This document shows, piece after piece, positions 5,035 to 44,652 of a DNA stretch of 64,000 bases; positions within the stretch are counted from its first letter, which is position 1, and each line of letters opens with the position of its first letter. This DNA comes from Variovorax sp. UMC13. GTDB taxonomy: Bacteria > Pseudomonadota > Gammaproteobacteria > Burkholderiales > Burkholderiaceae_C. A program made the translations under genes and the position numbers. A model generated the notes under the pieces. That model was given only the letters and a program-made list of their open reading frames with translations, searched no databases and was not told the DNA's origin. The stretch lies in the NCBI RefSeq assembly GCF_014170375.1, contig NZ_LZZW01000023.1, forward strand, positions 186,001 to 250,000, given 5' to 3'.

Positions 5035-5167
5035 GTTTTCGGACCGGCTTCCCTGCGCGAGGATTACCTCGGGCCACCTATGTAAAACCTACAAAAAGTG
5101 GCGCAATCAGGTTCAAAGGGACTTTCTCAGCCGTGTCGGTAAACCGACACAGCACCCCTAGCGAGCG
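5035..5167 (-). promoter_or_regulatory. Composite TPP riboswitch of cytX, interrupted by an element-derived hairpin
   Basis: Read on the minus strand, the 5' part (5167 to about 5104) has CTAGGGGTGCTG, a P3 hairpin, the conserved CTGAGA and CCCTTTGAACCTGAT. The 3' part (about 5071 to 5040) has the P5 loop CCGAGGTAATCCTCG and P4' CGCGCAGGGAAG. These are the diagnostic THI-box elements. Between them lie about 33 extra nt that fold as GCCAC...GTGGC with an inner TGTA/TACA stem. The 5' part belongs to the integrated element and the 3' part to the chromosome. Whether the aptamer still binds TPP with this insertion is unknown. Confidence 0.88.
5041..5091. other. attL of the integrated element
   Basis: Left junction. 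The chromosomal half-site (5041-5063) ends in GCGAGGA, the crossover dinucleotide TT is 5064-5065, and the element half-site (ACCTCGGG...) follows. It was placed by comparison with attR: both share GAGG-N-TTACCTC and differ on either side. The element arm 5066-5088 is an inverted repeat (16 of 23 positions) of the arm 44603-44625 at the other end, as expected for an attP of a serine integrase. Confidence 0.82.
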
Positions 5168-5170
5168 GGC

Positions 5171-5177
5171 ATTCTAA
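5171..5177 (-). promoter_or_regulatory. Element-carried -10 box reading into the cytX leader
   Basis: TTAGAAT on the minus strand, 5-10 nt before the start of the aptamer copy. The same TAGAAT box lies at the same distance upstream of the host copy at 44699-44704. No convincing -35 hexamer was seen. In the integrated state this would drive cytX; in an excised circle it would face int. Confidence 0.5.
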
Positions 5178-5208
5178 GCCTCTGCAGCGCGCGGTTGCGA
5201 ATCTCCGC

Positions 5209-6021
5209 ATGGGTCAAAATGCCGCAGCTAACAAAAAAAAGATGCAAAACAGCATGAGTAACCCGTTCTACCTCGACTGGACTTTCTGGGCGTTTGCATC
5301 GTCGTTGCTAGCCATAGCGCTATCACAAGCGCCTCCGATCGTGCGCTGGTTCGGCAAGCCGAGGCTTGTCCTTGAGTTGCCAAACCAAATGCGTATCACA
5401 CATGTAGCAGGCTACGCAGCTGCGGGAGTAGTGCTGAGCATCCGAAACGCCGGAAGCAAAGCGGCGCGCATCACCTCTCTGAGCATCAAGTTTCGGAGAA
5501 ATGGAGAGGATCTTCTTGATGCCCCGATCCTGGAGTTCCATCCCGATCCGCGCAACGCGCAGGCGCTACTGCTGATGCCGTTTTCCGTCGCGGCTGGCGT
5601 CGAAGTGACGCGAAGCATGAACGCCTATCAACAGCTCCCTAGAGATAAGGACCGAAAACTAAGTGAGCTCGCGTCCAGGGTGCGGGTTGATATAGGCAAG
5701 AAAGTCGAGCTTGCACAGGCAAACCGCGATTCGTTTGCGCCGCTGGGTTCAATGGTGACGCTCGATGCACGGCTGCTGCAAGAGGCGCAGTCCATGTTCG
5801 AGGCGAACTTTTGCTGGAAGGCCGGTGACTATGACGTGCAGATTCTTTGTAGATCCGATGAGCAAGCAGAGGTGCGACAACAAAAATTAGCCTTCACACT
5901 TTGGGAATCAGATGAGGCCGAGCTGAAGGCGTTGGCAGACGACTATCAGTATGGATTTGGTATAGGCCTCACGCACGAGCGCCATGCCAAGGGCGTGTTC
6001 GTGACGCTTCGAAGGATTTAG
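5209..6021 (+). CDS. Membrane-anchored protein of unknown function
   Basis: A 270-residue protein with one N-terminal hydrophobic segment (FYLDWTFWAFASSLLAIAL) followed by a soluble domain. The beta-rich stretch VVLSIRNAGSKAARITSLSIKF resembles an Ig-like or 'rare lipoprotein' type fold often seen in one-TM bacterial proteins (weak inference). Starts are possible at 5209, 5242 and 5254; the last places the membrane segment near the N-terminus. It is the first gene inside the left end, in cargo with lower GC than the host. No function is assigned. Confidence 0.7.
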   Translation: MGQNAAANKKKMQNSMSNPFYLDWTFWAFASSLLAIALSQAPPIVRWFGKPRLVLELPNQMRITHVAGYAAAGVVLSIRNAGSKAARITSLSIKFRRNGEDLLDAPILEFHPDPRNAQALLLMPFSVAAGVEVTRSMNAYQQLPRDKDRKLSELASRVRVDIGKKVELAQANRDSFAPLGSMVTLDARLLQEAQSMFEANFCWKAGDYDVQILCRSDEQAEVRQQKLAFTLWESDEAELKALADDYQYGFGIGLTHERHAKGVFVTLRRI

Positions 6022-6031
6022 AGGTTCGCGG

Positions 6032-6289
6032 TTAACTTTTCTCCTCGAAGCTGAGGGGCAAGCTCATTACCCGTAAAAAGCCTTTGCCCTGCAGCACGTT
6101 GCGATAGCAGTTGAGCGTGACGGCCTCCGCTTCCCGCGCCACGTCGTCGCCAGCGCTAACGATCGTCCCGTCGTCGAGGACGATCGCGAGCCTAGCGGGC
6201 TTGCCGTTGACGCTCACGCGCAGGCTTTCGTGCGAGACCTTCGAGATCACGACGCCTTCGATGGCACCGGTGGGCTGCTGGCCGATCAT
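6032..6289 (-). CDS. Small hypothetical protein (85 aa)
   Basis: Convergent with the preceding gene. The ATG at 6289 was chosen because GGAGG lies 7 nt upstream, inside an alternative longer frame. The product is soluble with alternating beta strands (IEGVVISKVSHESLRVSVNG, LAIVLDDGTIVSAGDD). It is not recognised as a known family. Confidence 0.55.
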   Translation of the reverse strand: MIGQQPTGAIEGVVISKVSHESLRVSVNGKPARLAIVLDDGTIVSAGDDVAREAEAVTLNCYRNVLQGKGFLRVMSLPLSFEEKS

Positions 6290-6430
6290 GTGGATTCCCT
6301 CCACGGCGCTGCTGTACTACCTTGGTCGAGTGAAATGGAAATACTCCCTGTCGCCGTTGCTCGGCCATAGGAAAACTGCGACAGGCTCCTTGTGCCGTTC
6401 ATACTGAGGCCTCCAATTTAAGGAGCGCTC

Positions 6431-6700: not shown

Positions 6701-6830
6701 GGCTGAATGAAGGCCTGCCAGAGATTGAGGCAATGCGGGTCCTGATGGTGTTGACTCCTTCCCGTAGTTGCAAGCTGAGGGCGTGGGCACCGCACGGCAT
6801 ACTCCTCGTCAGAACAGAAGGAGGAGCGAC

Positions 6831-8191: not shown

Positions 8192-8232
8192 CGGGGATGA
8201 CGCCTTCACGTCGCCTGAGAGGTGGCTGCGCT

Positions 8233-8406
8233 TCACGCTAGCTCCTCGTGGCTCAGCGCCAGGTGCTCGTCGACGACAGCGAGCACAGTGTCGAATTCAA
8301 GCCCGGTGAGCTGGGCCACGGCCTCGCATGCGGCCTCGTGGCTCGGCGCCAGTTCTCGCGACCGCACGTACTCGTTGATGATTCGGTGCTTTGCCACGAT
8401 GTTCAC
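8233..8406 (-). CDS. Small protein (57 aa), last gene of the leftward operon
   Basis: GTG start overlapping the parB-like stop in a GTGA, the same coupling used along the operon. The product NIVAKHRIINEYVRSRELA...HEAACEAVAQLTGL looks fully helical and ends in LSHEELA. It is missed when only ATG starts are considered. Function unknown. Confidence 0.6.
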   Translation of the reverse strand: MNIVAKHRIINEYVRSRELAPSHEAACEAVAQLTGLEFDTVLAVVDEHLALSHEELA

Positions 8407-9221
8407 CCTGCGGCCCCCACCAGTGCAGCCGCGATCGCTCGAAGGTTCTCGGCCGGCGCGCCGTTTGGCAGCTCGACCTTCAGCACCATGACGCCGCCTG
8501 TCGCGTCACCCAGCAAGATCTTCATGTGGCGCTCCAGCGCGCGGAACAGCTGACCGTCGTTGATCGCCGTGACCTTGGCTCCGCCCTTCGCTTTGCTCTC
8601 CTCCAGCCGCGCAGCCAACTCGTGGCCGGCATCGACACCACGCTTGCGGACCACCTTCACGGCTTCGGCCGCGCTCACCGTGCCGGCCTGGACCATGCGC
8701 TGCACGTCGGTGTTCGCGTTGGCCAGGAGGAGCATCTGGCGGACATGCTCCTCGCTCTTCTGCATGCTGGTGGCGATGCGGGAGGTCGGCCAGTCAAAGG
8801 CAGCCAGCCGCTTGTAGACGCGGCCCAGCTCCAACGGGGTCAGCTTGAGGCCGGCGTTGGTCTGCGCGATCGCGGCGACTGCCTCCGCATCATTCCCAGC
8901 GAAAACGTCAAACCGCACCCAGACCTCGCCATCGGCGTCAGCGATGCTGGTGTCTTCGGCGAGGGCGCGGCGCGTCGCTTCGGTGCGGCAGTGGCCATCG
9001 CGGATCAGCCCGCCCTTTTCCTCGAGTGAGATCAGGATGGGCGGCCAGGTGCCACCGGCCAGCTTGTGGCGCTTCAACGCCTCGATGTGCGCTTCCAGTT
9101 CTGGGCCGGGCGTGCGTTCGTTGAAGCCGTCCTGCACGCGCAGCGCGGACAAGCGGATCACGGGCCCGGTGTCGGGCCGGCGAATCACCTTCGCCGCATT
9201 CAGCTTGTTCAGCGAGCTCAT
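8403..9221 (-). CDS. ParB/RepB-like DNA-binding protein
   Basis: The 272-residue protein has the ParB N-terminal pattern: LEAHIEALKRHKLAGGTWPP, then GLIRDGHCRTEATRRAL (the GxxRxxA-type motif). A helix-turn-helix region follows (LTPLELGRVYKRLAAFDWP, SRIATSMQKSEEHVRQML). Phage and plasmid ParB-like proteins of this size are often regulators or CTP-binding switches; no ParA is present, so partitioning is not shown. It overlaps the KTSC gene upstream by 4 nt (ATGA). Confidence 0.82.
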   Translation of the reverse strand: MSSLNKLNAAKVIRRPDTGPVIRLSALRVQDGFNERTPGPELEAHIEALKRHKLAGGTWPPILISLEEKGGLIRDGHCRTEATRRALAEDTSIADADGEVWVRFDVFAGNDAEAVAAIAQTNAGLKLTPLELGRVYKRLAAFDWPTSRIATSMQKSEEHVRQMLLLANANTDVQRMVQAGTVSAAEAVKVVRKRGVDAGHELAARLEESKAKGGAKVTAINDGQLFRALERHMKILLGDATGGVMVLKVELPNGAPAENLRAIAAALVGAAG

Positions 9222-9691: not shown

Positions 9692-10257
9692 TGGACGCAC
9701 TCCTCGCGCAAGCGCGAATCCGGCTTTGCGCTCTCTTTACAGGCTCCTGCTGCTTCCAACGGCTCATGCACCGGCGTTACGACGGCGCCCTGCCGGCACC
9801 GCGTCTTCGCCACCTCGAAGCTGGTTGTGAACCGGGGGCGCTCAGCCGCTTGCGGCCATCCTTCGGGCCACTCGATGCGGTAGCAGATCGAGCTCTCCTG
9901 CAATGGATCCTCTGCCTGGGCCTCGCTGGGGTTTTCATCCGAGTGCGCAGAGTCGGCCGGGGCGGAAGGTGTCTCGATGCGGCCGTAGCAATGGAACAGG
10001 CACGGCTGCAGCTGTCCCGCGAAGATCGGATGGATGGCGCGGAAGCGCAGGGTGACGGTCTGCAGCTCGCCGCGTTGGTCGATGCGCGCGGGCTGGTGCG
10101 CGCATACGACCTCCCCGGAGGCGGTGTCGATCCTCAGCACGCGCTCAAGCTGCGTTGTCGCTTCCACATCGAAGACCACAGCGCCGCGCGCGTTGTGCGC
10201 CGTGTAGATCTTGGCGCATGCCTTCTCTGCGCTGGGGATGGAGCCGTACCGCTTCAA
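9688..10257 (-). CDS. Hypothetical phage-type protein (189 aa)
   Basis: Begins KRYGSIPSAEKACAKIYTAHNARGAVVFDVEA; the middle has a beta-rich part with two Cys/His pairs (VVCAHQP, CLFHCYG) and an acidic linker, then a C-terminal part (CYRIEWPEGWPQAAERPRF). It overlaps both neighbours by 4 nt. Not recognised as a known family. The operon context suggests an early, lysogeny-silenced gene. Confidence 0.65.
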   Translation of the reverse strand: MKRYGSIPSAEKACAKIYTAHNARGAVVFDVEATTQLERVLRIDTASGEVVCAHQPARIDQRGELQTVTLRFRAIHPIFAGQLQPCLFHCYGRIETPSAPADSAHSDENPSEAQAEDPLQESSICYRIEWPEGWPQAAERPRFTTSFEVAKTRCRQGAVVTPVHEPLEAAGACKESAKPDSRLREECVQ

Positions 10258-11273
10258 GACGGCACCCCATCGTGCGTGTGCCCGTCCAGCAGCCGGCCGG
10301 CAGCCTTCTTCCCGACAAGGTGCACCATGGCCCAGCCATCCGCCGACGTGATGCCCTTCGGATACTCTGGTGCCTCGTAGCCACCGCGCACCACGCGGCC
10401 GTTCCAGTCGATGGCAGCCGTCTTGAACGCTCCGCGCCCCGGGTCACCGCTGCCCGGAGCCCACTCGCCATGCTGCTTGAACAGAAACGGCACACCGGCC
10501 GCCTCGCACTGATTGCGCAGAGCGCGCGCCCAGTCGGGATGCATGGGCCGCGCGTGGGGGCCGCTCTCACCGCCGACGATGACCCAGTTAATGCCAGGCA
10601 CTGCCGGCGCCGGTCCTATCTCGCGCGGGCCGTAGTCGTCCCACATTCCTCGCGCATGGCGAACGTCGCACAGGTCATCCGCCGCCATCTTCCCGTGGAG
10701 GGTGCACCGACGCGACAGAAACTGCTCGATCCAGACCGGACCCAGCAGAGGCTCCAGGCTCAGAAAGTTCGGCAGGCCCAGGCGCAGCAGCTTCGGGATG
10801 TCGCACACGGCCTCTTCCTGGTTCACGATGGTCGCGCCGATGCGAATGTTGGGCGGCGGACCGTCGAGGAACATCTCAGCCAGCATGGAGGCGGCGTTAC
10901 CGATGCGCTTCGTCAGCAGCAACCAATCGAGATCCGGCGTGACGCTGATGAGCGTGGCTAGGTCGGCGCGCCATTCGTCCTCGACGGCGTTGTCGAACAC
11001 GTCGGCCAGACTGGCGCAGAAGACGCGCTGCCGCCGGCCGTGCTGCGCGAGGAAGGTTGCGGCCTGGGCGTTCCAGCGCGTCGGCAGGTACCAGTTCGCG
11101 GCGCTCGTGCGCCGGCGAGCCGCGCCCGGTCCCCAGTTGATCGCGGTGCCACCGTGGAAGCGCGCGTTGCGCGTCTCGGCGTAGCAGTGGTCACAACCGG
11201 GTCCAACCTTCTGGCAGCCTTCCCACGGATTGAACGTGTGATCGGCCCACTCGATCTTGGTGTTCGCGCTCAT
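10254..11273 (-). CDS. Phage Gp37/Gp68 family protein (DUF5131, radical-SAM-like)
   Basis: The 339-residue protein carries IEWADHTFNPWEGCQKVGPG followed by CDHCYAET, the cysteine cluster typical of the Gp37/Gp68 family. Further family blocks are RVFCASLADVFDN, WLLLTKRI, LSLEPLLGPVW and WVIVGGESGPHARPM. The spacing C..C..C resembles a radical-SAM Fe-S site; the biochemical role of the family is unsettled. The start at 11273 is set by the ATGA overlap with the HD gene. It is common in early regions of phages and islands. Confidence 0.88.
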   Translation of the reverse strand: MSANTKIEWADHTFNPWEGCQKVGPGCDHCYAETRNARFHGGTAINWGPGAARRRTSAANWYLPTRWNAQAATFLAQHGRRQRVFCASLADVFDNAVEDEWRADLATLISVTPDLDWLLLTKRIGNAASMLAEMFLDGPPPNIRIGATIVNQEEAVCDIPKLLRLGLPNFLSLEPLLGPVWIEQFLSRRCTLHGKMAADDLCDVRHARGMWDDYGPREIGPAPAVPGINWVIVGGESGPHARPMHPDWARALRNQCEAAGVPFLFKQHGEWAPGSGDPGRGAFKTAAIDWNGRVVRGGYEAPEYPKGITSADGWAMVHLVGKKAAGRLLDGHTHDGVPS

Positions 11274-11953
11274 GGATGGCCGGCCCCCTGCACGGCGCCG
11301 CCCTGCGCGAGCTCGATCGCGAAGGTGAGCTCGTCGAACCGATCGGCGAAGGCCGCGCGCCAGTCCGACCAACTCATGCGCTCGCGCTCGGGCGCATCCA
11401 GGCGTATCCAGTCGATCGGCGCGATGCGCATTGCGGGGTCCTGGCCATCACCGAGTACACCCCATGGCGCATGCGTGCCCTCGCGCCAGGCGGTCAGGTC
11501 GCGCCGTTCGGTGGCCAGCGCCTGCAGATCGAACAGACGCAGCGCATGCTGGTTGCCCGCGAAGACGCTGGTGAGCTTGAAGCGCTGGCGCACCAGACGC
11601 GCATGGATTCCTTCGAACTGCGCCCAGGCCCGTGTCCCGCCGCTCAGGCCGGCGAGGTAGTTCACCGCCTCCTTCGCCGGACTGGAAACATCGGTGACGA
11701 AGGCCTCGTGGGCGTCATGCAGCAGGGCGGCGAACTGCACGTAGACGCTCGCGCCAGCGCGCTGAGCGATCTCGCTGACCAGCAGGCTGTGCTCGGCCAC
11801 GCTGTACGGACGGGTGCAGGCGCCGGTGAAGCGGTTGATCTGCGCCAGGTGGTGGGCGATGTCCTCGATGCGGATCTCGCAGGCGGCCGGGTCGAGCATG
11901 GCGAGGCCGCACAGGTGGTACTCGGCGCCGGTGGCCGTGATCATGAATGACAT
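11270..11953 (-). CDS. HD-domain hydrolase (YfbR-like nucleotidase)
   Basis: The 227-residue protein has the HD signature: RPYSVAEHSLLVSEIAQ with metal His, then FAALLHDAHEAFVTDV with HD. This is the arrangement of YfbR-type 5'-deoxynucleotidases and phage HD hydrolases, which may trim nucleotide pools. The start 11953 has AAAGG upstream; the internal ATG at 11944 would give an ATGA overlap with the preceding gene and is the alternative. The substrate is not shown by the sequence. Confidence 0.8.
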   Translation of the reverse strand: MSFMITATGAEYHLCGLAMLDPAACEIRIEDIAHHLAQINRFTGACTRPYSVAEHSLLVSEIAQRAGASVYVQFAALLHDAHEAFVTDVSSPAKEAVNYLAGLSGGTRAWAQFEGIHARLVRQRFKLTSVFAGNQHALRLFDLQALATERRDLTAWREGTHAPWGVLGDGQDPAMRIAPIDWIRLDAPERERMSWSDWRAAFADRFDELTFAIELAQGGAVQGAGHP

Positions 11954-16631: not shown

Positions 16632-17345
16632 GTGACGCCGGTGACGGTGACGACACGCCGTCACCGGCACTCGCTCGGCGGTCTGTTCACGGAGGATGCG
16701 ACATGAGCTGGATCAAGATGCGCGGCACGCTGCTGACGAACCCTAAGGTCATCGGGGTGGCACGAGCGCTGCTGCAGGATGCGGAGTTCCTGGCATGGTC
16801 GGGCTGGGGTGCACCTGGTGTACGTGTCACGCAGAACACAGATCGTGACGTCACGCGTGACGTCACAGGTGACGCGGAGCGTCACGGCGCGGCGTCACAG
16901 CCCGTCACGGGCGTGACGCTCGCGCTCTTGCCGGTCGTCACACGCGTGACGGTCGGGGCTCTGCTGCCCCTATGGTCGATGGTCAACGAGTGCGCGTCAC
17001 CCGATGGCGTGCTGTCCGGGGCTGACACCTTGGTGCTCGACACGATCTGCGGGGTGCCGGGCATCGGAAGGGCGCTTGCCAAGGTCGGCTGGATCGAGAT
17101 TCTTCCCAATGGGGAGGGCGTCTGCTTCACCAACTTCGAGGAGCACAACACGGTGGGCCGGGTGCGCGGCAGCTCGGCGAAAACCGGGGCCGAGCGGACC
17201 AAGGAATACAGGGAGCGCAAAAGGCTGGAGCGTGACGCGTCACGCGCCGTCACTGTGACGTCACAGCGTGACCACAGAGAAGAGAAGAATAGAGAAGATA
17301 GAAATACACCCCCCAACCCCCCGCAGGGTGTGACGTCACAGGCGG
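16632..17345. repeat. GTGACG/CGTCAC repeat cluster, candidate replication origin
   Basis: Dense GTGACG/CGTCAC hexamers in both orientations from before the replication gene to inside it. Four are perfect TGACGTCA octamers at 16846-16853, 16858-16865, 17256-17263 and 17331-17338. In lambda the origin iterons lie inside gene O, so an origin within this gene is plausible. Part of the density could instead reflect Val-Thr/Asp-Val-Thr codons. Confidence 0.5.
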
Positions 17346-17854
17346 ACGGAGCGTCACCGCCGATCGCATCGACGCCGCCAAGCACGGCAGACGAGATCTG
17401 CGGCGCGATCCGAGCACGCGGCGTAGCGGACGCGAATCCATCGAATCCGGAGCTCGCGGCGCTGATCGCCAAGGGCGTGACGCGCGAGACCTTCGAGTCC
17501 GCGGCCGACACCTGCACCAAAGCCCGGCCGCCCAAGGGCATGCCGTACCTGCTCGGCATCGTGAAGCGCCAGCTCGGCGAGGCCGCAGTGATCGCCTCGG
17601 CCGTGGGCTTCCAGGCGAAGGCCTGGGATGCCGGGCGCGACAGCATCGAAGCCAAGGCCAGAGAGCTGGGCATGGCGCCGTGGAACGAGCACGACCTGAG
17701 CCCCGGGAGGGAGAACTTCCTCGCGTACACCGAGCGGGTGCGCCGCAGGGTGGAGGAGGGCGGACGCGCAGAGCAGGGCGGAAGGGCGGAGCAGGGCGCA
17801 CAGACCGGCCATGCCCAGCAGGCGCCACGCATGGCCCATGGGGTACCCGCATGA
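16703..17854 (+). CDS. Phage replication-initiator-type protein (383 aa)
   Basis: The N-terminus SWIKMRGTLLTNPKVIGVAR is typical of phage early replication proteins placed after cII. A wHTH-like part follows (GIGRALAKVGWIEILPNGEG, VCFTNFEEHN), then a basic linker, and a C-terminal region (LAALIAKGVTRETFESAADT, KGMPYLLGIVKRQL) like those on helicase-loading proteins. An Asp-Val-Thr-rich insertion (residues ~48-75) is encoded by the repeat cluster. No helicase or primase gene follows. Role inferred from position and end motifs. Confidence 0.65.
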   Translation: MSWIKMRGTLLTNPKVIGVARALLQDAEFLAWSGWGAPGVRVTQNTDRDVTRDVTGDAERHGAASQPVTGVTLALLPVVTRVTVGALLPLWSMVNECASPDGVLSGADTLVLDTICGVPGIGRALAKVGWIEILPNGEGVCFTNFEEHNTVGRVRGSSAKTGAERTKEYRERKRLERDASRAVTVTSQRDHREEKNREDRNTPPNPPQGVTSQADGASPPIASTPPSTADEICGAIRARGVADANPSNPELAALIAKGVTRETFESAADTCTKARPPKGMPYLLGIVKRQLGEAAVIASAVGFQAKAWDAGRDSIEAKARELGMAPWNEHDLSPGRENFLAYTERVRRRVEEGGRAEQGGRAEQGAQTGHAQQAPRMAHGVPA

Positions 17855-28865: not shown

Positions 28866-29399
28866 CGTGCTTCCGATGCGGTAGCGCGTGTCAGCGGCTG
28901 GGACGGCCGCGTTCGTGCAACGGCTGCCGGACGCTGGCCCCCGCGCGGGAGCATGAGCAAAGTCACCGGGTCATGTTTATGCGCGATGATCTTCATCTCG
29001 TGCAGCGAAAGGGCCGCGGGCGCAGGTGCGAATCACAACCGCGTCGCGCCTTTAACGCCCGCTCGGTCGAACGGCACCATGGTTGGGCGGCGAGCGAATT
29101 GTTCAGGCACTGGGATGGCCTGGCTAGCTATCGATCAGGTCGGGGTACATCAACTGTGTGATGCACCCCGCCGCAGTGGCCACGTGGTGCTGGCTGACTA
29201 CACGTATGGCCGGCTTCTCTGCTATTGGCTTGTTCGCGCCGTGAGGCAGCGATCAGAGACCGTAACCTGTCCCGCGAGGTCTTACAACCGGCGGGCCTGC
29301 TACCGCAGCCGTTTACTCCGTACCACTCGTCGGCCCGAAAGTCCGCTTGGTGCTGGTCAGCGTGAGCAGGGGCGCGACGACTGACAGACCGAAACCGCT
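28866..29399. other. Gene-free stretch between the Avs-like gene and the IS30 element
   Basis: About 530 bp of moderate GC. Only short, poorly biased frames on either strand. No terminator hairpin or repeat could be supported. Confidence 0.5.
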
Positions 29400-29427
29400 G
29401 GCGGATTCAACCGGTCGACGCAACACA
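29400..29427 (+). repeat. IS30 left terminal inverted repeat
   Basis: 28 bp, identical to the reverse complement of 30601-30628. Confidence 0.92.
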
Positions 29428-29460
29428 ATAACCACTGCTGAGGCAGAAGGAGTGTTGCAG

Positions 29461-30621
29461 TTGAAGTATCGGACGCGAACCCACTACACGGACGCCCAGA
29501 AGGCATTGATGTGGAAGCGCTGGAAGGAAGGCTGGACTCTGCATCAGATCGGCCATCTGTTCGACCGACCTCACACCTCGATCCACACCATCCTGTCGAA
29601 GACCGGTGGCATTCGACCACCGGACCGGCGGCGCAGCGCGAAGGCGCTGACCCTGGCGGAGCGAGAAGAGATCTCTCGTGCTCTAGTGATCGGTGAATCG
29701 ATGCGCTCGGTGGCCGCCCGACTTGGCAGGGCACCGTCGACCATCAGCCGCGAGATCGGTCGCAACGCAGGGCAAGAATGCTATCGGGCGAGCGTCGCCG
29801 ACGAAGCAGCCTGGAACCGAGCCCTGCGGCCGAAGCGCTGCAAACTGGTCAAGAATCGGGCGCTGGCTGGCGTCGTGGCGGACCTGCTTCGAATGCGGTG
29901 GTCGCCGGAGCAGATCGGCGGTTGGCTCAAGCATACTTATCCGAACGACCCGGGCCTTCATGTGTCACACGAGACCATCTACCGCAGCCTGTTCATTCAA
30001 GCGCGTGGCGCGTTGAAGAAGGAACTGCTGGAGCATCTCAGACGCACACGCGGCATGCGACGCTCTCGTTCCTACACACAGAAGACGGCGATCCATGGGC
30101 AGATTGCTGATGCCGTGTCGATCAGGGAGCGCCCTGCATCTGTCGAAGATCGGGCGGTGCCTGGCCATTGGGAGGGAGACTTGGTCTTCGGGAGTGGCAA
30201 CAGCCAAATCGCCACGTTGGTCGAGCGGCAAACGCGATACGTGATGCTGGTCAAACTCGAAGGCAAGGACTCGCAGTCGGTCGTCAACGCGCTGATCAAG
30301 AACGCACGCAAGTTGCCGCAGGAGCTCTACAAGTCATTGACTTGGGATCGAGGCACGGAGATGCACGGTCACAAGCGATTCACAATGGCCACCGACATCC
30401 AGGTCTACTTCTGTGATCCACAGAGCCCCTGGCAACGCGGCAGCAACGAGAACACCAACGGGCTGCTGCGGCAGTACATGCCGAAGGGCATCGACATCTC
30501 CGGCTACTCACAGCTCCAACTCAACGCGATCGCGCGACAATTGAACGAGAGGCCGCGCAAGACACTCGGCTTCCACACACCCGCTGAGATGTTCAGCGAA
30601 TGTGTTGCGTCGACCGGTTGA
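29461..30621 (+). CDS. IS30-family transposase
   Basis: 386 residues. An N-terminal HTH (MKYRTRTHYTDAQKALMWKR; SVAARLGRAPSTISREI) is followed by a DDE core: VPGHWEGDLVFG (first D), LTWDRGTEM (second D) and QRGSNENTNGLLRQYMPKG (E), all typical of IS30. The TTG at 29461 is preceded by AAGGAG at 29448-29453, deciding the start. The stop codon lies inside the right terminal repeat. Confidence 0.93.
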   Translation: MKYRTRTHYTDAQKALMWKRWKEGWTLHQIGHLFDRPHTSIHTILSKTGGIRPPDRRRSAKALTLAEREEISRALVIGESMRSVAARLGRAPSTISREIGRNAGQECYRASVADEAAWNRALRPKRCKLVKNRALAGVVADLLRMRWSPEQIGGWLKHTYPNDPGLHVSHETIYRSLFIQARGALKKELLEHLRRTRGMRRSRSYTQKTAIHGQIADAVSIRERPASVEDRAVPGHWEGDLVFGSGNSQIATLVERQTRYVMLVKLEGKDSQSVVNALIKNARKLPQELYKSLTWDRGTEMHGHKRFTMATDIQVYFCDPQSPWQRGSNENTNGLLRQYMPKGIDISGYSQLQLNAIARQLNERPRKTLGFHTPAEMFSECVASTG

Positions 30622-32157: not shown

Positions 32158-35055
32158 TTATTTCCCGCCGCGCTGTGCGTTCAGCGCAAGTAGGCGGCGC
32201 AGGATTTCTTCATCGGACATTTGCGGCGTGTAGTCGCTCCAGCCGTAAGCAGCGGCCACAGCATTGGCCAAGGTTTCGTGTGCCAACGTCAACCACGCAG
32301 GGCTGGAGTTGTAGAGGTTTGTGAGAGTGCGCTGCTTCAGGTCGTCTTCATGCCCCGGCTTGGCGACAGGTCGCTTTGGGAAACCTGCTGCTTGTTCCTC
32401 AGGGGTGAGGTCCCAATCAGTCCACTCAGGCGGGCTTAGGTAGTGGTCGCGTTGCCTAATTAGGTCCTGCGCCGATATTGCGATTGCATGTGCATTTTGA
32501 TCGCCTGCATATGCGGCAGAAGGGGTGTTTGGAGTCAAGCCTTCAGGAAACGGAAAGGTTTCAAAACAAGTTGTGTGTGTGTAGCGCGGGTCATTGCCTA
32601 CTCCCAAGCTGCTACCCCTCCTTAACGCCCAGACTTCGTGAATGCGGGATTGAAGGATTCCGATGCTCGTGTCGTCATCGCGAGCGACAACGACAAGCGC
32701 ATCTCCAGGCGTAACAGCAGGGTGTGTCCATGCGCAGAGGTAGTGTTTGGCGTGACGCGGGATGGAGATGTAGCGTGAAAGTCCTTTGAGCGCTGCGAAC
32801 ATTTCTGGTCGCGGCCAACCGAACTGCCACCACGGATACTTCTTGAAGTCGTTGAAGCGATCAGTATGCCGCCGATGCAAGCGGACATTCGAGATGGCAG
32901 CAAACGGCTTGTCGAACATGGCCGCAGCCTTCTCATCGCGGCCCACGAAATTGACTGTAAACCTGTCCAGCGGCCGCGACGTGATGTCGTCCGCACCCAA
33001 ATAGGGACGAACAACAGCGGCCATAGGCTCCCCGTTCATCGTTGCGGGCTCTCGCAGCATTTTTCTTGCTTCGTTTCCTGGCAGGTTAAAGCTGGCTTTG
33101 GCAAGGCCGAGTTTTTCCCGCAGTGCTGGCCTCACCGAGGCTGATGGCGTCACGCCCTGAAATGACCGGTTCAAGTTTTCGGGCAACTTAGGTGCCTTCG
33201 TCACATCAATGTCTGAAGTGAGGTCTGCATGGATGGCCCGCACTTCAAGGCCATCAAGCCGCGGCTTCATCGCGCTTTGCCCAAATCCGGTCATCGAGAC
33301 GCGCACAGCTGCGCCGTTATCCCACCACTCTTCATCGCTCCACGCTAGAAAGATGCGCGACTTCTCCAAGATGCGTTTGAGAACTTCGCGGTTCGCACCA
33401 CCTCGAATGGAGTTTGTGGAAACCAAGCCTGCCGATTGCACGGCGCCTGCTTCAATCTGCTTCCGTGCCTTTTCAAACCAGAAGCAAACCAAGTCCACGC
33501 CATCCAGGTTGTGGTCCCGATAGGCTAGGCGCAATGCGTCCACGTACGCCCCAGTCAACTCGCCGCGCATCCTCTTGTTGCCGATGAACGGAGGGTTTCC
33601 GACGATCACATCTGATTTAGGCCACACGGCTTCGCTGCCATCGGCGTTCAGCAGGGCGTCGCGGTGCTCGATTCCGTCCAGGGACTGGAGAATTGGGTCG
33701 CTCGCGTGCTGCCACCCGTTCTGCCGGCACCATTGGATGTCGCCAATCCACACCGTCACCCGCGCAAGTTCGGCTGCGAACTCGTTGATTTCCAGGCCCA
33801 AAATGTTGTGCGGGCCGGTCTGCAAACTGACCTCGGCCTGAAGATCAAGTTCCTGCGCTTCGACCTGGGACCGCTTTTCAACATCGCGTAGGGCCTTTAG
33901 CGCCAAATAGAGAAAGTTGCCGCTGCCGCAGGCCGGGTCCAGAACCCGAAATTCGGCCAGACGAAGTAGGAAGCCTTGATAGAGCCCTTGGCCTTCTTGC
34001 AGGGCGGCATTTGGCCGGAACTTCTTGCCGGCCTTCACCATGCCGAACTTGGGTGCGGCCTTGGCGATTTTTTCACGCACGGCCTTCCACTCAAGCAAGA
34101 GCGGATCGCGCACGAGAGGTTCTACGAGCTTCGCTATGGTGTCTGTGTCGGTGTAGTGCGCGCCTAGAGCCGCGCGGCGGCTACCGAGGCCACGCTCGAA
34201 CAGCGTGCCGAAAATTGTGGGATCAATCGCGCGCCAGTCCATGTCGGCCGAGGCGGACCGTAGCGTTTCGAGGTCGTCGGCTGTGAGCGCTGGAACCGCG
34301 ATGTGCTTGAACAGGCCGCCGTTGAACCAAGCGATGTCGTCGTTGCCGTAAGCGCCCTTCGGCGCCTGCATCGCCTTGAACAGCTTCGTGATGCGGTCTG
34401 CGGCCTTGACTACGTCGTTCTTGGCGGCGGCGAGGAGGCCGGTGAAAATCTTCTCCGGCAGCAACCCTTCATCCTCGGCGAACATACAAAATAGGCACTG
34501 CACCAGGAAGTGCGCTACCTGATTGCTGTCCAGTCCGCGTTGGCGCATGGTGTCGGCCAGTGCGGCATAGCGCTGGGCGGCTTCCTCGGTTACGGCAGCG
34601 GTGGACTTCTCGGGCCGCAGCTTCAGCGGCTCCGTAAAGACCCATTTCAGAATTTGCCGCTTGCCGTCATCCGCCAAATCTTCGATTCGGATTTCGCGCG
34701 GTTCGTCTGGGTACCCGGTAAACGCGGTGTGGATGATGATGCGCTCGCGGTCGCAGACAACCAACAGCGGCGGGCTTTCTAGCTGGAGGGAGTAGTCGGT
34801 CAGCTGTTTGAGCGCCTTGCCGAGGTCGCGGCCCGGCTTTTTGTTCTCCCATGCGAAGTGGTTCCGCTTCCACACATCGGCCCAACCGTCGCCGCCGCCT
34901 GCCTTTTTGGCGCCTCGCTCGAAGCAATAGTTTTCGTGGTCACGGGGCTTGTCGACGCCGAGCAAATCGCACAAATCGTCGAAATGGCCCTGCGCTCCGG
35001 CACGTTCGTTGAGCTTGTTGTTCTGCCAGCGGGCGATGAATTGGGCGGGAGTCAT
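32158..35055 (-). CDS. MmeI-like type IIL restriction-modification enzyme (965 aa)
   Basis: A single protein with nuclease and methylase. Nuclease at residues ~55-80: GWADVWKRNHFAWENKKPG gives the D...ExK core. A helical spacer follows, then the N6-adenine methylase with motif I LDPACGSGNFLYLAL and motif IV IVGNPPFIGNKRMRG, then a target-recognition region and a C-terminal domain (LTLAHETLANAVAAAYGWSD). This order is that of MmeI-type enzymes, which methylate one strand and cut ~20 bp away. The ATG at 35055 was chosen because MTPAQFIARWQN is the conserved family start. The recognition site cannot be read from the sequence. Confidence 0.88.
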   Translation of the reverse strand: MTPAQFIARWQNNKLNERAGAQGHFDDLCDLLGVDKPRDHENYCFERGAKKAGGGDGWADVWKRNHFAWENKKPGRDLGKALKQLTDYSLQLESPPLLVVCDRERIIIHTAFTGYPDEPREIRIEDLADDGKRQILKWVFTEPLKLRPEKSTAAVTEEAAQRYAALADTMRQRGLDSNQVAHFLVQCLFCMFAEDEGLLPEKIFTGLLAAAKNDVVKAADRITKLFKAMQAPKGAYGNDDIAWFNGGLFKHIAVPALTADDLETLRSASADMDWRAIDPTIFGTLFERGLGSRRAALGAHYTDTDTIAKLVEPLVRDPLLLEWKAVREKIAKAAPKFGMVKAGKKFRPNAALQEGQGLYQGFLLRLAEFRVLDPACGSGNFLYLALKALRDVEKRSQVEAQELDLQAEVSLQTGPHNILGLEINEFAAELARVTVWIGDIQWCRQNGWQHASDPILQSLDGIEHRDALLNADGSEAVWPKSDVIVGNPPFIGNKRMRGELTGAYVDALRLAYRDHNLDGVDLVCFWFEKARKQIEAGAVQSAGLVSTNSIRGGANREVLKRILEKSRIFLAWSDEEWWDNGAAVRVSMTGFGQSAMKPRLDGLEVRAIHADLTSDIDVTKAPKLPENLNRSFQGVTPSASVRPALREKLGLAKASFNLPGNEARKMLREPATMNGEPMAAVVRPYLGADDITSRPLDRFTVNFVGRDEKAAAMFDKPFAAISNVRLHRRHTDRFNDFKKYPWWQFGWPRPEMFAALKGLSRYISIPRHAKHYLCAWTHPAVTPGDALVVVARDDDTSIGILQSRIHEVWALRRGSSLGVGNDPRYTHTTCFETFPFPEGLTPNTPSAAYAGDQNAHAIAISAQDLIRQRDHYLSPPEWTDWDLTPEEQAAGFPKRPVAKPGHEDDLKQRTLTNLYNSSPAWLTLAHETLANAVAAAYGWSDYTPQMSDEEILRRLLALNAQRGGK

Positions 35056-35814
35056 TCGAGTTATGTGTTGGGAAATGCGGCTTGATCCGGCTGGCGCTCT
35101 GCGCGCTAACCCGGCGATCATGCAACATTTCTTTACGACCTTGCCGCTCGCAATCGCTTGTACAGGAACGATTTGACTAACCCGAGTGCTGGAGGCGTGG
35201 TGGTGGAAGCCATCTAGCTGCTCTGGGCTTATCCCATCTGTGGAACCTCGTGGTTGGCCGGAGCGGCTTGGTCGCGCAGGAAGTGTTTGGACGCCGACCC
35301 TTACCGGGACCCTCCTGACGTCCGGATCGTGGTGGAGGACACACCGCAGATCACGCCGCGCCCATCTCGTCGCCTGTCTAGGGTCGCGCGCTCGCGAACT
35401 TCGGGACCGGAGGTATGTTCAGACCGCCGCAGATCGCGTCCGCAGACGGCAGTAGGCGTCACGGAGGGAAAGCAGAGTGGAAATGACGTATCCGCTGCTT
35501 TCGTCAGAGGTGTCCTGATCGAACAGATCCCGATCTTGTGCGGTCAGCGAGTGATCTATCTTCCCTGCAGAAATCCCTGCGGCTGCAGCGAGAGCGAGGC
35601 GGTGCGCCGGCAGATGCGAGGCGGTTGCAGTCGTTCGCCGCCGAACAGCTGAAGATCGGTTACGCTGCATACCGGTCAGTCGGCAATTCCCGACTGGCGG
35701 CTTCGGGCCCAAAGCGGAAGTTCGACGCGCCGAAAAGCGGTCGTTCAGCGAGGCCAGATGCCTACTCGCTGCGTAATGGCTTGTTGCGCCGCAGGGAGAG
35801 CAAACCTCCATGGC
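35056..35814. other. Gene-free stretch upstream of the MmeI-like gene
   Basis: About 760 bp with no supported gene; frames on both strands are short and poorly biased. It includes repeat copy C and must contain the promoter of the restriction gene, which could not be pinned down. Confidence 0.5.
35667..35750. repeat. Intergenic repeat, copy C
   Basis: GCATACCGGTCAGTCGG then GGCGGCTTCGGGCCCAAAGC, shared in part with copy B. Ends AAAAGCGGTCGTTCAGCG. Resembles dispersed palindromic repeats of beta-proteobacterial genomes. Confidence 0.6.
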
Positions 35815-36591: not shown

Positions 36592-36717
36592 GATCAGGTC
36601 TCCTGAGTCTCGAGCAACCCACCAGTTTAGAGGCGCGCCGACTCGACCGAACCCCTCGATCAAACGAAGGTGTAACGCTGCTTGCGGCCGGCAGTTGGGG
36701 TGACGAATACTGTATGT

Positions 36718-39912
<3,195 letters not shown>

Positions 39913-40676: not shown

Positions 40677-40889
40677 CTACATCGCCTCCGCCTCTGCGGA
40701 ACGCCCTGTTATGTGCTCCACCGACCTTACGATCTCTGCTACCAGCTGTGCTTCTTCTTGCTCGATCCTGTGAGCTAACCGTGCATGACGGTGCTTGGCA
40801 AAAATGCTGAACTCCACTACTTGACACGAAGTCTTCGTAGGAGCAGCGAAGCTACCTTCGAGGTCTAGTTCAAGCTGCTTGTGGTCCAT
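40677..40889 (-). CDS. Small protein (70 aa) downstream of the deaminase
   Basis: Start at 40889 preceded by GAGGAAACAGCG; it overlaps the deaminase 3' end by 20 nt. DHKQLELDLEGSFAAPTKTS then a helical charged C-terminus (RIEQEEAQLVAEIVRSVEHI). Co-transcribed with the deaminase and closed by the terminator. It could be a partner of the defence gene; no family recognised. Confidence 0.6.
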   Translation of the reverse strand: MDHKQLELDLEGSFAAPTKTSCQVVEFSIFAKHRHARLAHRIEQEEAQLVAEIVRSVEHITGRSAEAEAM

Positions 40890-42480
40890 CGCTGTTTCCT
40901 CTTTCGAGAGTAGATTGTACTGGGAGTAGCCCACGCTTCACCAGTTTATCAACAACCATACCTTCAAGCTCCGGCAGCGACTGTAGGCTTTTTTCCATTT
41001 TCGGAACGGCATTGCCTGGGACTATTGCGATTCGCCTACCATTCAACTTCCTTGAGTTAGGGCGCATTTGGAAGATTGAAAGATATCGAGAAGGGGCGAC
41101 TCCTTCAAAGGGTAGCAATCGAACAAGACCGATTTCACTTTCACTTTCCGTAATTGCGTCTCCATGTAGCTTGGTGGCAAGGCTTTTACGGTAGGGTTCA
41201 ATGTAATAAACATTGTGAATGCCGCTTGCTACGATGTGTCGTGCGCAGCCATGGCAAGGATAGGTGGTCACGAAAATACTGCCGCCTTGCACCTTATTTC
41301 CGCCAAGCTTTAATGCGTTTAAGATGGCATGCATTTCGGCATGTATGGCTCTTGAAAATTCGATCAGACCTTGCAATTTTTTGTCGGTCAAAATTTTCTG
41401 AACAGCTTCTTCCATTTTGGCTGCGGGCACTATGTCGTGGCCCATGCTCTCTATTAGCGCCTCCGCTAATAAATGCTTCTCTTCATCGTTGAAGCACTTG
41501 CCGCCGTCCTTGTTGTAGCAACGAAGATCCTTGGTTCCATGCGGGTCGTTCTCGCGGTCAGTTTGGTAGAGCCCGCCGAAGGCTTTTGGCACATCGTTCC
41601 ACCCAACCGCAAGCACCTCTCCCGAAAAGTCTGTGACTGCTGCTCCAACCTGACGAGAAAGACATGCAGATGAGCTTGCTGCTGATGCAGCGGCATACAT
41701 CGCCGATTCCTCTTTGGTCGGTGTCGCTATTCTTGCGCCCAAAATCAAATCTAAGTATCGTTCGACTTTGATGGTCAGTCCTGTTTGTGAATTGGTGTCC
41801 ATCCTTAAGAAGAAATCGCTCTGCGGGAAAGTGTCTCCGACTGTCTGCCCATACAAAGCGCTTCCCTTGGCATCCTGCTCCATTAGCGCGTGAATCTTTG
41901 CGCGTGGGAAGTCCGCCGCCTTCATATTGGCCTCCCGCGCAGACGTTGGGGAAAAGACACCAAAAACGTACAGCACTTCACGGTAAACTTCTCTCAATAA
42001 ATCAAGTTCCGCTTGATTTTTGATAGAGTCAATGATGTGGCAAATTCTACGACTTACAAATCGTTCGCCGCCATCGTCTTTTCCATTTTTCTGTCGGTCT
42101 ACTCGAATTTCTGCAACTGCTAGATCCGCGAGAACTGATGCGCCGAAGGAATTCCGCATTTCATCGCCGCTCTTTATTAGAGCCTCGACTCGTGCGACTT
42201 TTGGTGCTTTAGGTATCGACTTGTCGCCGCCGACTTTATCAAAGTGCTTTGAAATAAAATCACTAAGTCGAATAATCTTGCATTGATATCCGTATTTCTG
42301 CGTTACTGCTGCCTCAATCGCTGCAGCAACTTCGTGCAAAGGTGAGCCGATCGGACCGCAAAGAGCAATTACTAACTCACTGGTGTGGGTCGTTTTCAGG
42401 GTCGCATGTGTTTCTGAAAAGTCAGGGCTCTCACCGAACAAGGTCGTTTCGTTTGCTGCTTCTTTTGGTATGGCGCTCAT
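40870..42480 (-). CDS. avcD: AvcD-type antiviral deoxycytidylate deaminase
   Basis: The 536-residue protein has an N-terminal P-loop kinase-like domain (SELVIALCGPIGSPLHEVAA; KIIRLSDFISKHFD) and a C-terminal zinc deaminase domain. Zinc ligands are in SRAIHAEMHAILNALKLGG (HAE) and VTTYPCHGCARHIVASG (PCxxC). This fused layout and size match AvcD/DCD proteins, which deplete dC nucleotides during phage infection and are held off by an adjacent RNA, AvcI. No classical small dCMP deaminase has the kinase domain. GC content is clearly below that of the host. Start at ATG 42480, with a weak GGAAA upstream. A candidate inhibitor RNA would lie upstream. Confidence 0.85.
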   Translation of the reverse strand: MSAIPKEAANETTLFGESPDFSETHATLKTTHTSELVIALCGPIGSPLHEVAAAIEAAVTQKYGYQCKIIRLSDFISKHFDKVGGDKSIPKAPKVARVEALIKSGDEMRNSFGASVLADLAVAEIRVDRQKNGKDDGGERFVSRRICHIIDSIKNQAELDLLREVYREVLYVFGVFSPTSAREANMKAADFPRAKIHALMEQDAKGSALYGQTVGDTFPQSDFFLRMDTNSQTGLTIKVERYLDLILGARIATPTKEESAMYAAASAASSSACLSRQVGAAVTDFSGEVLAVGWNDVPKAFGGLYQTDRENDPHGTKDLRCYNKDGGKCFNDEEKHLLAEALIESMGHDIVPAAKMEEAVQKILTDKKLQGLIEFSRAIHAEMHAILNALKLGGNKVQGGSIFVTTYPCHGCARHIVASGIHNVYYIEPYRKSLATKLHGDAITESESEIGLVRLLPFEGVAPSRYLSIFQMRPNSRKLNGRRIAIVPGNAVPKMEKSLQSLPELEGMVVDKLVKRGLLPVQSTLERGNSDGPQAA

Positions 42481-42715
42481 CTTTTTATTTTCCGTTACAA
42501 ACCGCAACGTGATAGTGATGGTAACCCTACAAAGTGTCAACGATTCCCTGCAAATATGAAGCTCCTCCTACGAGTCCCGCCGGGATGGCAGCTCTGAGAA
42601 TTGCGTCTGCGCGAAGCAACGCCGCTGGTCGCCCCTGCTAACTGGCCGGGCGAATGTCCAGAGCAGCGAACACCATCGAACTGCCCAGCAGCAATAAATT
42701 TCTGTCTCTTGAGCC
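42481..42715 (-). other. Upstream region of the deaminase; possible AvcI-like RNA site
   Basis: 235 bp without a gene. In known AvcID systems a structured RNA that inhibits AvcD is encoded immediately upstream in the same direction. A conserved structure could not be recognised by eye here, so this is only the expected location. Confidence 0.3.
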
Positions 42716-42916
42716 TTACGAGTGCTTCGAGCGAGGGAGCAGGGGAGAGTTGAATGCCTCCGCTACTTTTGCGGCGGGATCACCGAGCGGTGCCGAATCG
42801 TTTTTGCTGTGATCATCGAGAAGCTGGGCGATCGTTGGGAACCCCGGCGCTGCGGCGCTCTTCAACGATCTGTCTGCAGCTCCCGAGCCCTTCGACAGCT
42901 GGGAGGAGGCTGCCAA
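42716..42916 (-). CDS. Possible small protein (66 aa), TTG start
   Basis: SSQLSKGSGAADRSLKSAAA then PGFPTIAQLLDDHSKNDSAP; reads like protein and continues upstream in frame toward the integrase stop, but without an ATG or GTG. It could be the end of a decayed gene or a small accessory such as an excision factor. Tentative. Confidence 0.3.
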   Translation of the reverse strand: MAASSQLSKGSGAADRSLKSAAAPGFPTIAQLLDDHSKNDSAPLGDPAAKVAEAFNSPLLPRSKHS

Positions 42917-42987
42917 GCCGGCGTGGCAGAACTGCGGCGGCGTGAGCCTGAACTCTGGTCCTCGCAGCCGTCCCAGTGAGACCGCGA

Positions 42988-44595
42988 TCAGGCGGTCTCG
43001 GCGATCGCCTCATCAGCGCTGAGCAGTTCCCCGTCGGCGCCGATGCGCAGCAGCCTGGCGGTGCCACCTTTGGCGTGCAGAACGACATCGATGGAGCGAG
43101 CCTTGGCGTCTGGCCGCATTCCGCGCTGATAGACCACGATGCGCTCGAACGTGTCGCCCACCAGTTGGCGGGCGCGCATGCGCGCCTCGTAGTCGAGCTT
43201 CTCCACGCCGTCGACCAACGCACGCCACCGGTCATCGGCGCCTGTGAGATCCGCTCGGGTCGCTTCGGCTACTGCACGCTCGGCTGCTTTCACCTCGTCG
43301 CGCGCGCCGTCGCGCTCCATCTCGAGTTCGCGGGCCCGGCGCAGGAAGGTCGCCGGCGCATCGTCGCTGGTCAGCAGCGCCTCCGTGATCCTGTCGAGCT
43401 TCGCCTCGATCGCCTGAAGGCGCGCCGACGTGCTGGCCAGTTCACCTCGCGGCACGATGCTGCGATCAGCTGCATACAGCGCCTGCAGGTTCACCAAATC
43501 AGAGCAGTAGAGCATGAGCGCGCGCTCGATCGGCGCGGCCGAGCACGACCCCTTCACGAGGCAGCCGTCACCGCTGTTCACTCGGATGCACTGCAGCCGG
43601 CGGTGGCCATCGGCCAGCGTGCCGTCGGCCCTCATCTTGTTCGCCATGGTCTGGCTCTTCAGCGGCCCGCCGCAGTAGCCGCAGAACGCGACGCCGAAGC
43701 CGGTCAGCAGCGGCGGAATCTGGCCCTTCACGTGCCGGCGGCTGCGCAGCGCGGCCAGCTGCTGCAGCTCGTTCCACGCGTCCGCGTCCAGCAGAGCAGG
43801 GTAATAGTCGACGAGCACATGCGTGTCAGCCTCGAGCGTTAGGTGCTTCTCGCCTTTCAGCGCGGGGTTGGACAGCAGCCGCACCAAGTGCCCCGACGTC
43901 GGCATGCCGGCGCTGGTCGCGAGGCCAGCATCGTGCAGCGCCTTGGCGATGTGGCCGGCGCCCAGCCCACGGCGGAACATGTCGACGGCGGCCCGCACTG
44001 CCTCGGCGCGGGCCGGGATGAGCGTCCACTTCCCCTCCACCACCTCGAGCCAGCCCGGCGTCTTGCCGTACCTGACCAGGCCGCGGTACGTGCCGGCGAT
44101 CCAGCCCAGGCACTGGCGCCGGATCGCGTCGCGCACGCGCTTGCTCTTGGTGTCGCTTTCCTCGTGCGCGCGGATCATCACCAGCAGGCTGTAGACGAGA
44201 TCCATGGGGTTAGCCTTCAGCCGCTCGCGGCTGTAGACCTTGCCGTCGCTGGCCGTCACCACGGAGATGCCGGCGCTGATGATGGCGGTGAGCTGCGCCT
44301 GCGCCTGGATAGGTTCAGCGCGGGAGAGGCGATCGAGGCCCTCGACGACGAGGTATGAGCCGCCCGGCACCTGGCCGTCTTCGACCGCGTTCAGGAACGC
44401 GCCAAGTGCGCCCTTCTTGACGTGCTTCTGGTGGAAGGCCGACAGGCCCTCATCGCGCATGGAGAGGGTTTCGTCGAGGAGCAGCTGGTGTTGTTCGGCC
44501 CACTGCGCCGCGTAGGCGCGTTGGCGATCGCTGCTCGCGCCGCCTGCCTGGCGCGCGTCACTGAACCGCATGTAGCTGTAGACCTTGGCACTCAT
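42988..44595 (-). CDS. int: Large serine recombinase (integrase of the element)
   Basis: 535 residues. The resolvase-type catalytic domain starts AKVYSYMRFSDARQAGGASS, with the nucleophilic Ser in RFS and the Arg motif in VVEGLDRLSR. A recombinase domain (RLVRYGKTPGWL...GHLVRLLSNPALKGE) follows, then a zinc ribbon (FCGYCGGPL...GDGCLVKGSC) and a coiled coil (residues ~385-450). This is the standard architecture of phage serine integrases that recombine attB and attP at a central dinucleotide. The ATG is 30 bp from the crossover, so attP forms its leader. No strong Shine-Dalgarno sequence; upstream transcription comes from the host riboswitch promoter when integrated. Confidence 0.93.
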   Translation of the reverse strand: MSAKVYSYMRFSDARQAGGASSDRQRAYAAQWAEQHQLLLDETLSMRDEGLSAFHQKHVKKGALGAFLNAVEDGQVPGGSYLVVEGLDRLSRAEPIQAQAQLTAIISAGISVVTASDGKVYSRERLKANPMDLVYSLLVMIRAHEESDTKSKRVRDAIRRQCLGWIAGTYRGLVRYGKTPGWLEVVEGKWTLIPARAEAVRAAVDMFRRGLGAGHIAKALHDAGLATSAGMPTSGHLVRLLSNPALKGEKHLTLEADTHVLVDYYPALLDADAWNELQQLAALRSRRHVKGQIPPLLTGFGVAFCGYCGGPLKSQTMANKMRADGTLADGHRRLQCIRVNSGDGCLVKGSCSAAPIERALMLYCSDLVNLQALYAADRSIVPRGELASTSARLQAIEAKLDRITEALLTSDDAPATFLRRARELEMERDGARDEVKAAERAVAEATRADLTGADDRWRALVDGVEKLDYEARMRARQLVGDTFERIVVYQRGMRPDAKARSIDVVLHAKGGTARLLRIGADGELLSADEAIAETA

Positions 44596-44601
44596 GCCGA
44601 G

Positions 44602-44652
44602 CAGTTTACTTAGCTCGCGTGAGGTTTACCTCAATCAGGTTCAAAGGGACTT
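44602..44652. other. attR of the integrated element
   Basis: Element half-site 44603-44625 (AGTTTACTTAGC...GAGGT), TT crossover at 44626-44627, then the chromosomal half-site ACCTCAATCAGGTTC. The central GAGGTTTACCTC is nearly symmetric, and the attL counterpart is GAGGATTACCTC. The arms match attL as described there. Confidence 0.82.

Follow-up and report, generated by a model that had tools for sequence, protein, structure and literature searches.

The thiamine pyrophosphate (TPP) riboswitch that precedes a cytX-like permease gene in Variovorax sp. UMC13 is interrupted, at its P5 hairpin, by an integrated element of 39,562 bp. The locus lies in a stretch of 64,000 nucleotides (the window; positions 186,001 to 250,000 of contig NZ_LZZW01000023.1), part of a 300 kb contig in a 7.1 Mb genome, and both riboswitch (RF00059) and permease gene are read from its minus strand. 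It is quite probable that the element, seated in the P5 hairpin, carries its own 5' half of the aptamer and rebuilds the riboswitch with it, the predicted integrase-binding arm of attP being folded as an extra hairpin. The wider proposal, that phages and defence islands use the riboswitch as an attachment site, rebuild a working riboswitch in each lysogen, leave hairpin scars and have remodelled the TPP riboswitches of the whole family, stands at about even chances.

The outer flanks of the element, when joined, carry the TPP aptamer consensus in order, and their predicted fold, on the authors' own reading, has the P1-P5 layout. No match within the window reaches the RF00059 gathering score of 54.3 bits. 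The uninterrupted leader exists in nature: a search of 101 genus genomes with the joined flanks found the site in one piece in genome G405, with 487 of 510 positions identical along a stretch running from the -10 region to within the coding sequence of the permease, six gap positions, every one in coding sequence, and 107 consecutive identical bases spanning the joint. This leader (C1:217603-217705) scores 55.6 bits, above the gathering score. An uninterrupted P4-P5 pattern (39 bases, up to three mismatches) is present in 76/101 genus genomes, and the reversed pattern, used as control, in none; the remaining 25 comprise two genomes with elements (G000 and G453), 15 with an insert at the same place and eight in which the joined site was not matched. 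Since G405 has no insert at its empty site, the idea that the window strain started from a leader with a hairpin is rejected; chance pairing at the joint is ruled out by this natural empty site together with the second genome and the viral contigs described below.

An element inside a TPP riboswitch, noticed earlier in a sequence-only reading, is thereby confirmed, and the interpretation then offered is partly supported. The riboswitch was correctly named as the target, and the joined leader predicted for a relative is carried by G405. The outer limits given then, 5041-44652, enclose the element but are about 20 bases too wide on each side when set against the cores, which read GAGGATTACCTC in attL and GAGGTTTACCTC in attR. 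A serine integrase gene does lie just inside attR, with 25 bp rather than 30 bp between its start codon (44595, minus strand) and the right core. The replacement 5' half at the other end had been missed; the riboswitch is not simply left cut.

Two copies of the -10 region and aptamer 5' half are present, one borne by the element at its left end and one, the host's, beyond the right core (Table 1). Both element ends are sub-threshold matches to RF00059, with 38.8 bits (5033-5169) and 36.8 bits (44594-44697), and the shortfall at attL is put down to an insert of 37 bases at the left junction. With a replacement present at 5106-5179 and an empty site known, the element belongs among the integrative elements that restore their target. 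The sequence makes it likely that the riboswitch is rebuilt by the element-borne 5' half, and P4 and P5 are predicted to survive in the rebuilt switch: both are retained in the predicted fold of the P4-insert-P5 segment, with real cores, in 6/6 attL sequences, each of which has the conserved aptamer sequence flanking its insert on either side. It is inferred that attL is a working riboswitch. In the proposed course of events, the serine integrase would insert the element into the P5 hairpin, the 5' half of the element would take the place of the displaced half, and the predicted integrase-binding arm of attP would be folded away as an extra hairpin. Insertion exchanges the two leaders, the host -10 region and 5' half now standing before the integrase gene and the copy of the element before the permease gene.

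A second element occupies the same place in Variovorax sp. SG517 (G453). Its integrase is 82% identical to that of the window, its ends match RF00059 with 46.8 bits (C2:202142-202245) and 41.1 bits (C2:155361-155485), 46.7 kb apart, and it is a myophage-like prophage with terminase, portal, sheath, tape measure and baseplate (10 proteins scanned). No virion gene (terminase, portal, capsid, tail) was found in the window element among 20 proteins scanned with PHROGs, the remaining small open reading frames (ORFs) lying outside the scan. One integration module therefore serves both kinds of element.

Further members were found among related-integrase loci, of which 80/106 from genome contigs and 80/212 from viral contigs (IMG/VR) were kept; a motif scan for the aptamer 5' half covered 232 loci. 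The half lies upstream of the integrase in SG517 (L073), in metagenome-assembled genomes (MAGs) of Acidovorax (L074) and Rubrivivax (L075), and in viral contigs L154, L156, L158, L159, L160, L161, L162, L163, L165 and L166, some of which are mutual copies. The genes upstream in L074 are host genes found in the right flank of the window too. Scanned with Rfam, 11 integrase loci from the genus and order searches yielded a single match, at SG517 (L024), and viral contigs L237, L239, L250/L256, L251 and L255 were added by a pattern scan. The attP order is preserved in L160, L161, L166 and L237: left-end gene, 5' half, hairpin insert, core, P arm, integrase. Their left-end gene is a homologue of window 6032-6304 (61-67% identical), and their integrases are 61-74% identical to that of the window. 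Behind the left junction stands a cytX-like gene in the window, SG517 and L251, and a TonB-receptor-like one in L250 and L255 (with a Plug domain in L250, the one tested); since these two left junctions lead into a TonB-receptor-like gene, it is the RNA element, and not cytX, that is targeted. L239, the opposite end of the contig that holds L158 and L244, is too short to show the gene behind its junction. The upstream ORFs of L075 and L165 matched neither the window element nor that of SG517, and both loci are counted among the 12 inserts considered below and not among confirmed attP. Repeated use of the riboswitch site, as the sequence-only reading had it, is thus borne out by SG517 and the viral contigs. 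Fuzzy motif matches in L100, L115, L125, L133, L169, L172, L185 and L222, and a second one in L161, were judged by eye to be due to chance, and most matches of the viral-contig pattern scans are not riboswitches.

Several of these contigs have features of their own. In the Rubrivivax MAG contig the riboswitch half is immediately preceded by a tyrosine-integrase gene (L075:46-1080, plus strand), and in L166 a reverse transcriptase gene lies upstream of attP (1-1773, plus strand). About 5 kb with several ORFs separates riboswitch half and integrase in L165 (1700-6627), unlike the other members examined. Viral contigs L268, L274, L292 and L293 have TPP-like aptamer sequence that looks real, outside this integrase clade; L268 terminates exactly at GAACCTGA (positions 1-24).

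The riboswitch insertions fall into one clade of the integrase tree, which was built from 65 rows (the window and 64 of the 160 related-integrase loci). This clade has 15 rows and support of 100/99: 11 are labelled TPP, three are cut off before the site, and the last is L164, whose protein equals that of L165. A twelfth TPP label, L125, lies outside and was judged a chance motif match. Among the other 50 rows, 40 have a RimO N-terminal motif upstream, eight have other or unresolved upstream sequence, and one is cut off. One row labelled in this way, L078, was checked: its best NCBIfam match is TIGR01125 RimO with 282 bits, for a partial protein and below the full-length cut-off. The window integrase is 53.5% identical, over 96% of the query, to the integrase of Burkholderia phage JC1, for which integration at rimO has been published (PMC9144972). 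Unrelated insertion sites of related integrases, which could have told against the sequence-only reading, occur only outside the riboswitch clade. Its suggestion of a universal, tRNA-like site is not upheld: the other TPP riboswitch in this genome, whose P5 differs (CCGGTTAGTACCGG), is uninterrupted, and integrases of less than about 60% identity are mostly found at the 5' end of rimO.

The 535 amino acid integrase of the window has the Resolvase catalytic and Recombinase domains and the size (about 500 amino acids) of a large serine recombinase. The motif TTTA[CT] stands exactly 11 bp before the core in 10/12 element inserts and is probably an integrase-binding motif; in the P arm of the window, a mirror motif, GTAAAC, stands 11 bp after the core. 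Core position 8 is T in attL and the empty sites examined, and A or G in attR and the attP-like sequences; strand exchange should therefore take place 5' of this position, most likely at core bases 6-7. By sequence comparison, the attB, attL, attR and attP-like sequences are compatible with attB x attP recombination at a central dinucleotide. The 90 amino acid protein at 6032-6304, a candidate excision (directionality) factor, accompanies the integrase family in 8/8 genomes chosen for having the integrase, and is present in 5/101 genus genomes, including all four with the integrase. It has no Pfam or PHROGs match.

The insert between J4/5 and the core is predicted to be a hairpin in RNA. Each of the 12 element inserts folded, six from attL and six attP-like, forms one or two local hairpins, with z averaging -4.18 and below -1.5 in every case. 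The controls comprise 11 integrase-side P arms of 37 bases, with a mean z of -0.11 and one below -1.5, and seven attP arms of rimO-site relatives, with both strands folded, a mean z of -0.10 and 2/14 below -1.5. In one class of nine single-hairpin sequences, two from elements and seven from the element-free leaders described next, 62/63 stem cells pair and 12 two-sided changes are spread over 6/7 pairs, with 18-37/63 cells pairing in slid-strand controls; the pairing register was taken from predicted folds of the same sequences, which favours that register.

Hairpin inserts are also found at the same place in 15/101 genus genomes (L340-L354), none of which has an integrase match (E <= 1e-80; found in 4/101 genus genomes). 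The 14 distinct inserts (L343 was left out of the folding, its insert being equal to that of L344) are hairpins, with a mean z of -3.6 and 14/14 below -1.5; L340, L348-L350 and L352 were folded with a common core for these scores, and a repeat with real cores changed no conclusion. P4 and P5 are retained in the predicted fold with real cores in 15/15. GTTTA[CT] lies exactly 11 bp from the core, as in attP, in six of the 15 (two of the six inserts are identical); one has TTTTAT, four have ATTCAT or ACTCAC, and four (L348-L350, L353) show little likeness to the motif. The ATTCAT and ACTCAC variants are what decay of the motif alongside a preserved stem would produce. The inserts of L342 and L347 closely resemble those of the window and SG517. 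Up to 20 kb upstream was sampled in 11/15 of these genomes and in six empty-site genomes: the first shared gene cluster lies 0-2.6 kb upstream in 11/11 (G497 has one shared gene cluster only), and none of the listed ORFs upstream of the 11 leaders clusters with proteins of the window or SG517 elements. In the 11 genomes sampled, shared genes so close, together with the lack of element proteins among the listed ORFs, rule out unseen copies of these elements.

The 15 element-free leaders are probably scars of lost elements. The two 5' halves would form direct repeats around the whole element, and homologous recombination between them could delete it; the product, a host 5' half followed by the hairpin, would be what is seen in the element-free relatives. 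The hairpins would be preserved because the arm ends up within an mRNA aptamer, whose folding has to remain possible.

Other explanations have to be weighed for both the hairpins and the scars. The hairpin variants might be old host variation of the TPP riboswitch that was picked up by the elements, in which case the element-free leaders would not be scars; this is possible but the less favoured account. It draws on a survey of 399 family genomes with a stricter pattern, in which inserts of 18-48 bases were found in 21 genomes and 15/141 genera, the window's own included in both counts. All 18 distinct inserts among the other 20 fold as hairpins (mean z -4.4), 17/20 rows have two hairpins, and 0/20 have TTTA[CT] at the attP place; a host origin may be entertained for these 20 because none has that motif. 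Such an origin does not sit well with the genus leaders, given the six motifs placed exactly as in attP, the one TTTTAT, and the close likeness of L342 and L347 to inserts of known elements. TPP riboswitches with one or two extra hairpins between P4 and P5 (L357-L375) occur across many genera of the family, and most of those examined precede TonB-receptor-like genes (two were tested, both with a Plug domain).

A rather unlikely account is that the element simply breaks the riboswitch, the half that it carries being only a promoter and the permease gene unregulated in the lysogen. The sub-threshold RF00059 score of attL would fit, as would the first two of several observations that weigh against a riboswitch rebuilt with an attP-derived hairpin. 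The minimum free energy structure of the whole attL leader is non-canonical, whereas that of the joined attB shows a canonical aptamer, and the insert class of the window (ATTGCGC...) pairs with J5/4 in the predicted fold. J5/4 equivalents touch TPP in known aptamers, and TPP binding could be weakened because of this pairing. J4/5 of SG517 reads GUU instead of GAU, a second class of three single-hairpin inserts has 20/24 cells paired, L255 (GCTTAT) and L165 (CCAGAT) deviate from TTTA[CT], and in L165 the riboswitch half is 5 kb from the integrase. A broken riboswitch does not, however, account for the conserved aptamer sequence that flanks the insert on either side in the six attL, nor for pairing that is kept across elements and scars and would be needless in a mere promoter copy. 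It is more doubtful still, to the point of being improbable, that the hairpins are DNA-level features of attP, bound by the integrase or an excision factor and unrelated to RNA. The motif does keep a constant distance from the core and falls within the hairpin loop or close to it; yet on average no hairpin beyond that of shuffled sequences is seen in the second attP arm or in the attP arms of those rimO-site relatives that have a related integrase, the two-hairpin inserts place their additional hairpin away from the core, and pairing persists in scars with a decayed motif.

Among its 120 best listed matches, the ATPase encoded at 22266-28865 has full-length homologues from several named genera that are 77-89% identical to it, and its best PADLOC stretch covers residues 53-987. 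The right flank from 44710 to about 58700 is not syntenic with G405 next to the site, with just 70-84% matches elsewhere in that genome, and the first gene of this flank matches the Pfam STN domain weakly, short of the cut-off. Genes common with G405 resume about 14 kb out from the site; a second element was considered for this flank, which is taken for host DNA with a strain-specific stretch, as these genes resume.

Table 1. Features of the riboswitch locus and the integrated element (window coordinates)
Feature	Position	Strand	Evidence
cytX-like permease gene behind the riboswitch	3589..4938	-	PF02133, E 6.6e-13; 98% identical protein behind the G405 empty site
Host 3' half of aptamer (J5/4, P4 and P1 3' strands)	5033..5058	-	Contiguous with 5' half in empty site G405
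Probably rebuilt TPP aptamer, left junction (attL)	5033..5169	-	RF00059 38.8 bits, full model 1-105, below gathering score 54.3
attL core, the P5 hairpin; core position 8 is the host base	5059..5070	-	Core comparison
Element-borne insert between J4/5 and P5, predicted hairpin, TTTTAC 11 bp from core (predicted integrase P' arm)	5071..5107	-	Missing from empty site
Element-borne copy of -10 region and aptamer 5' half	5106..5179	-	64/74 bases as in host copy 44634-44707 (counted on alignment)
Small protein at left end of element, candidate excision factor	6032..6304	-	Homologues upstream of attP in L160, L161, L166, L237
ParB-like protein	8403..9221	-	phrog_1033
DUF5131 protein	10254..11372	-	PF07505
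Replication-initiation-like protein	16703..17854	+	phrog_2509
NACHT / Avs3a-like defence ATPase	22266..28865	+	PF05729; PDLC02167 Avs3a
Transposase (HTH_38 and rve)	29347..30621	+	Domain matches
Type IIG restriction-modification protein (MmeI-like)	32158..35121	-	Domain and defence-library matches
DNA polymerase III alpha-like protein	36682..39912	+	phrog_405; PF07733
dCTP/dCMP deaminase-like defence protein	40870..42540	-	PF00383; PDLC02373 dCTPase
Large serine integrase	42988..44595	-	PF00239 and PF07508, 535 aa (amino acids)
P arm with GTAAAC 11 bp from core; doubles as integrase leader	44596..44620	-	att comparison
attR core; core position 8 is the element base	44621..44632	-	Core comparison
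Host copy of -10 region and aptamer 5' half, now before the integrase gene	44634..44707	-	RF00059 36.8 bits over 44594-44697; 72/74 bases as in G405

A ligand-sensing RNA as integration target would mean that a predicted integrase arm, a piece of DNA, also has to work as an RNA hairpin. It raises the questions of how large an insertion the TPP aptamer tolerates between P4 and P5, whether lysogeny alters regulation by thiamine, and whether lost mobile elements are the source of unusual riboswitch expansions seen in genomes; a new candidate pair of integrase and attB is supplied as well. Genes for tRNA, tmRNA or proteins are where attachment sites are usually reported. In agreement with the sequence-only reading, no report of a riboswitch as attB came up in the open-access PMC papers searched; PMC5644110, PMC2222628, PMC12593503, PMC7643969 and PMC3556495, which did come up, deal with different subjects. 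Variovorax prophage sites are tabulated in PMC9658991, whose main text nowhere uses the word riboswitch. In an E. coli reporter, a cytX leader from Neisseria is reported to exert thiamine-dependent control (PMC7237195).

Integration into tRNA genes resembles the present case in that a conserved, structured RNA target is restored by element-borne sequence. There the 3' end is replaced; here it is the 5' half with the -10 region, and a large extra hairpin stays in the RNA. Such integration is common, as stated in PMC9658991. Compared with RF00059 TPP riboswitches at large, attL and the scars share the conserved aptamer sequence and differ by one or two extra hairpins between P4 and P5. The rimO-site phages such as JC1 (PMC9144972) have a related integrase and likewise replace the 5' part of the target by phage sequence. 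Their site is the start of the rimO coding sequence, and the rimO-site relatives in the tree (JC1 is not one of its rows) lie outside the riboswitch clade. The nearest parallel is the replacement of the 5' end of dusA: as described in PMC4482086, dusA-specific prophages and islands insert at the 5' end of a conserved gene, replace the part displaced and supply a putative promoter, as the element appears to do here. The dusA elements have a protein gene as target and an integrase family of their own, whereas the target here is a riboswitch aptamer, to which attP sequence would contribute a predicted RNA hairpin.

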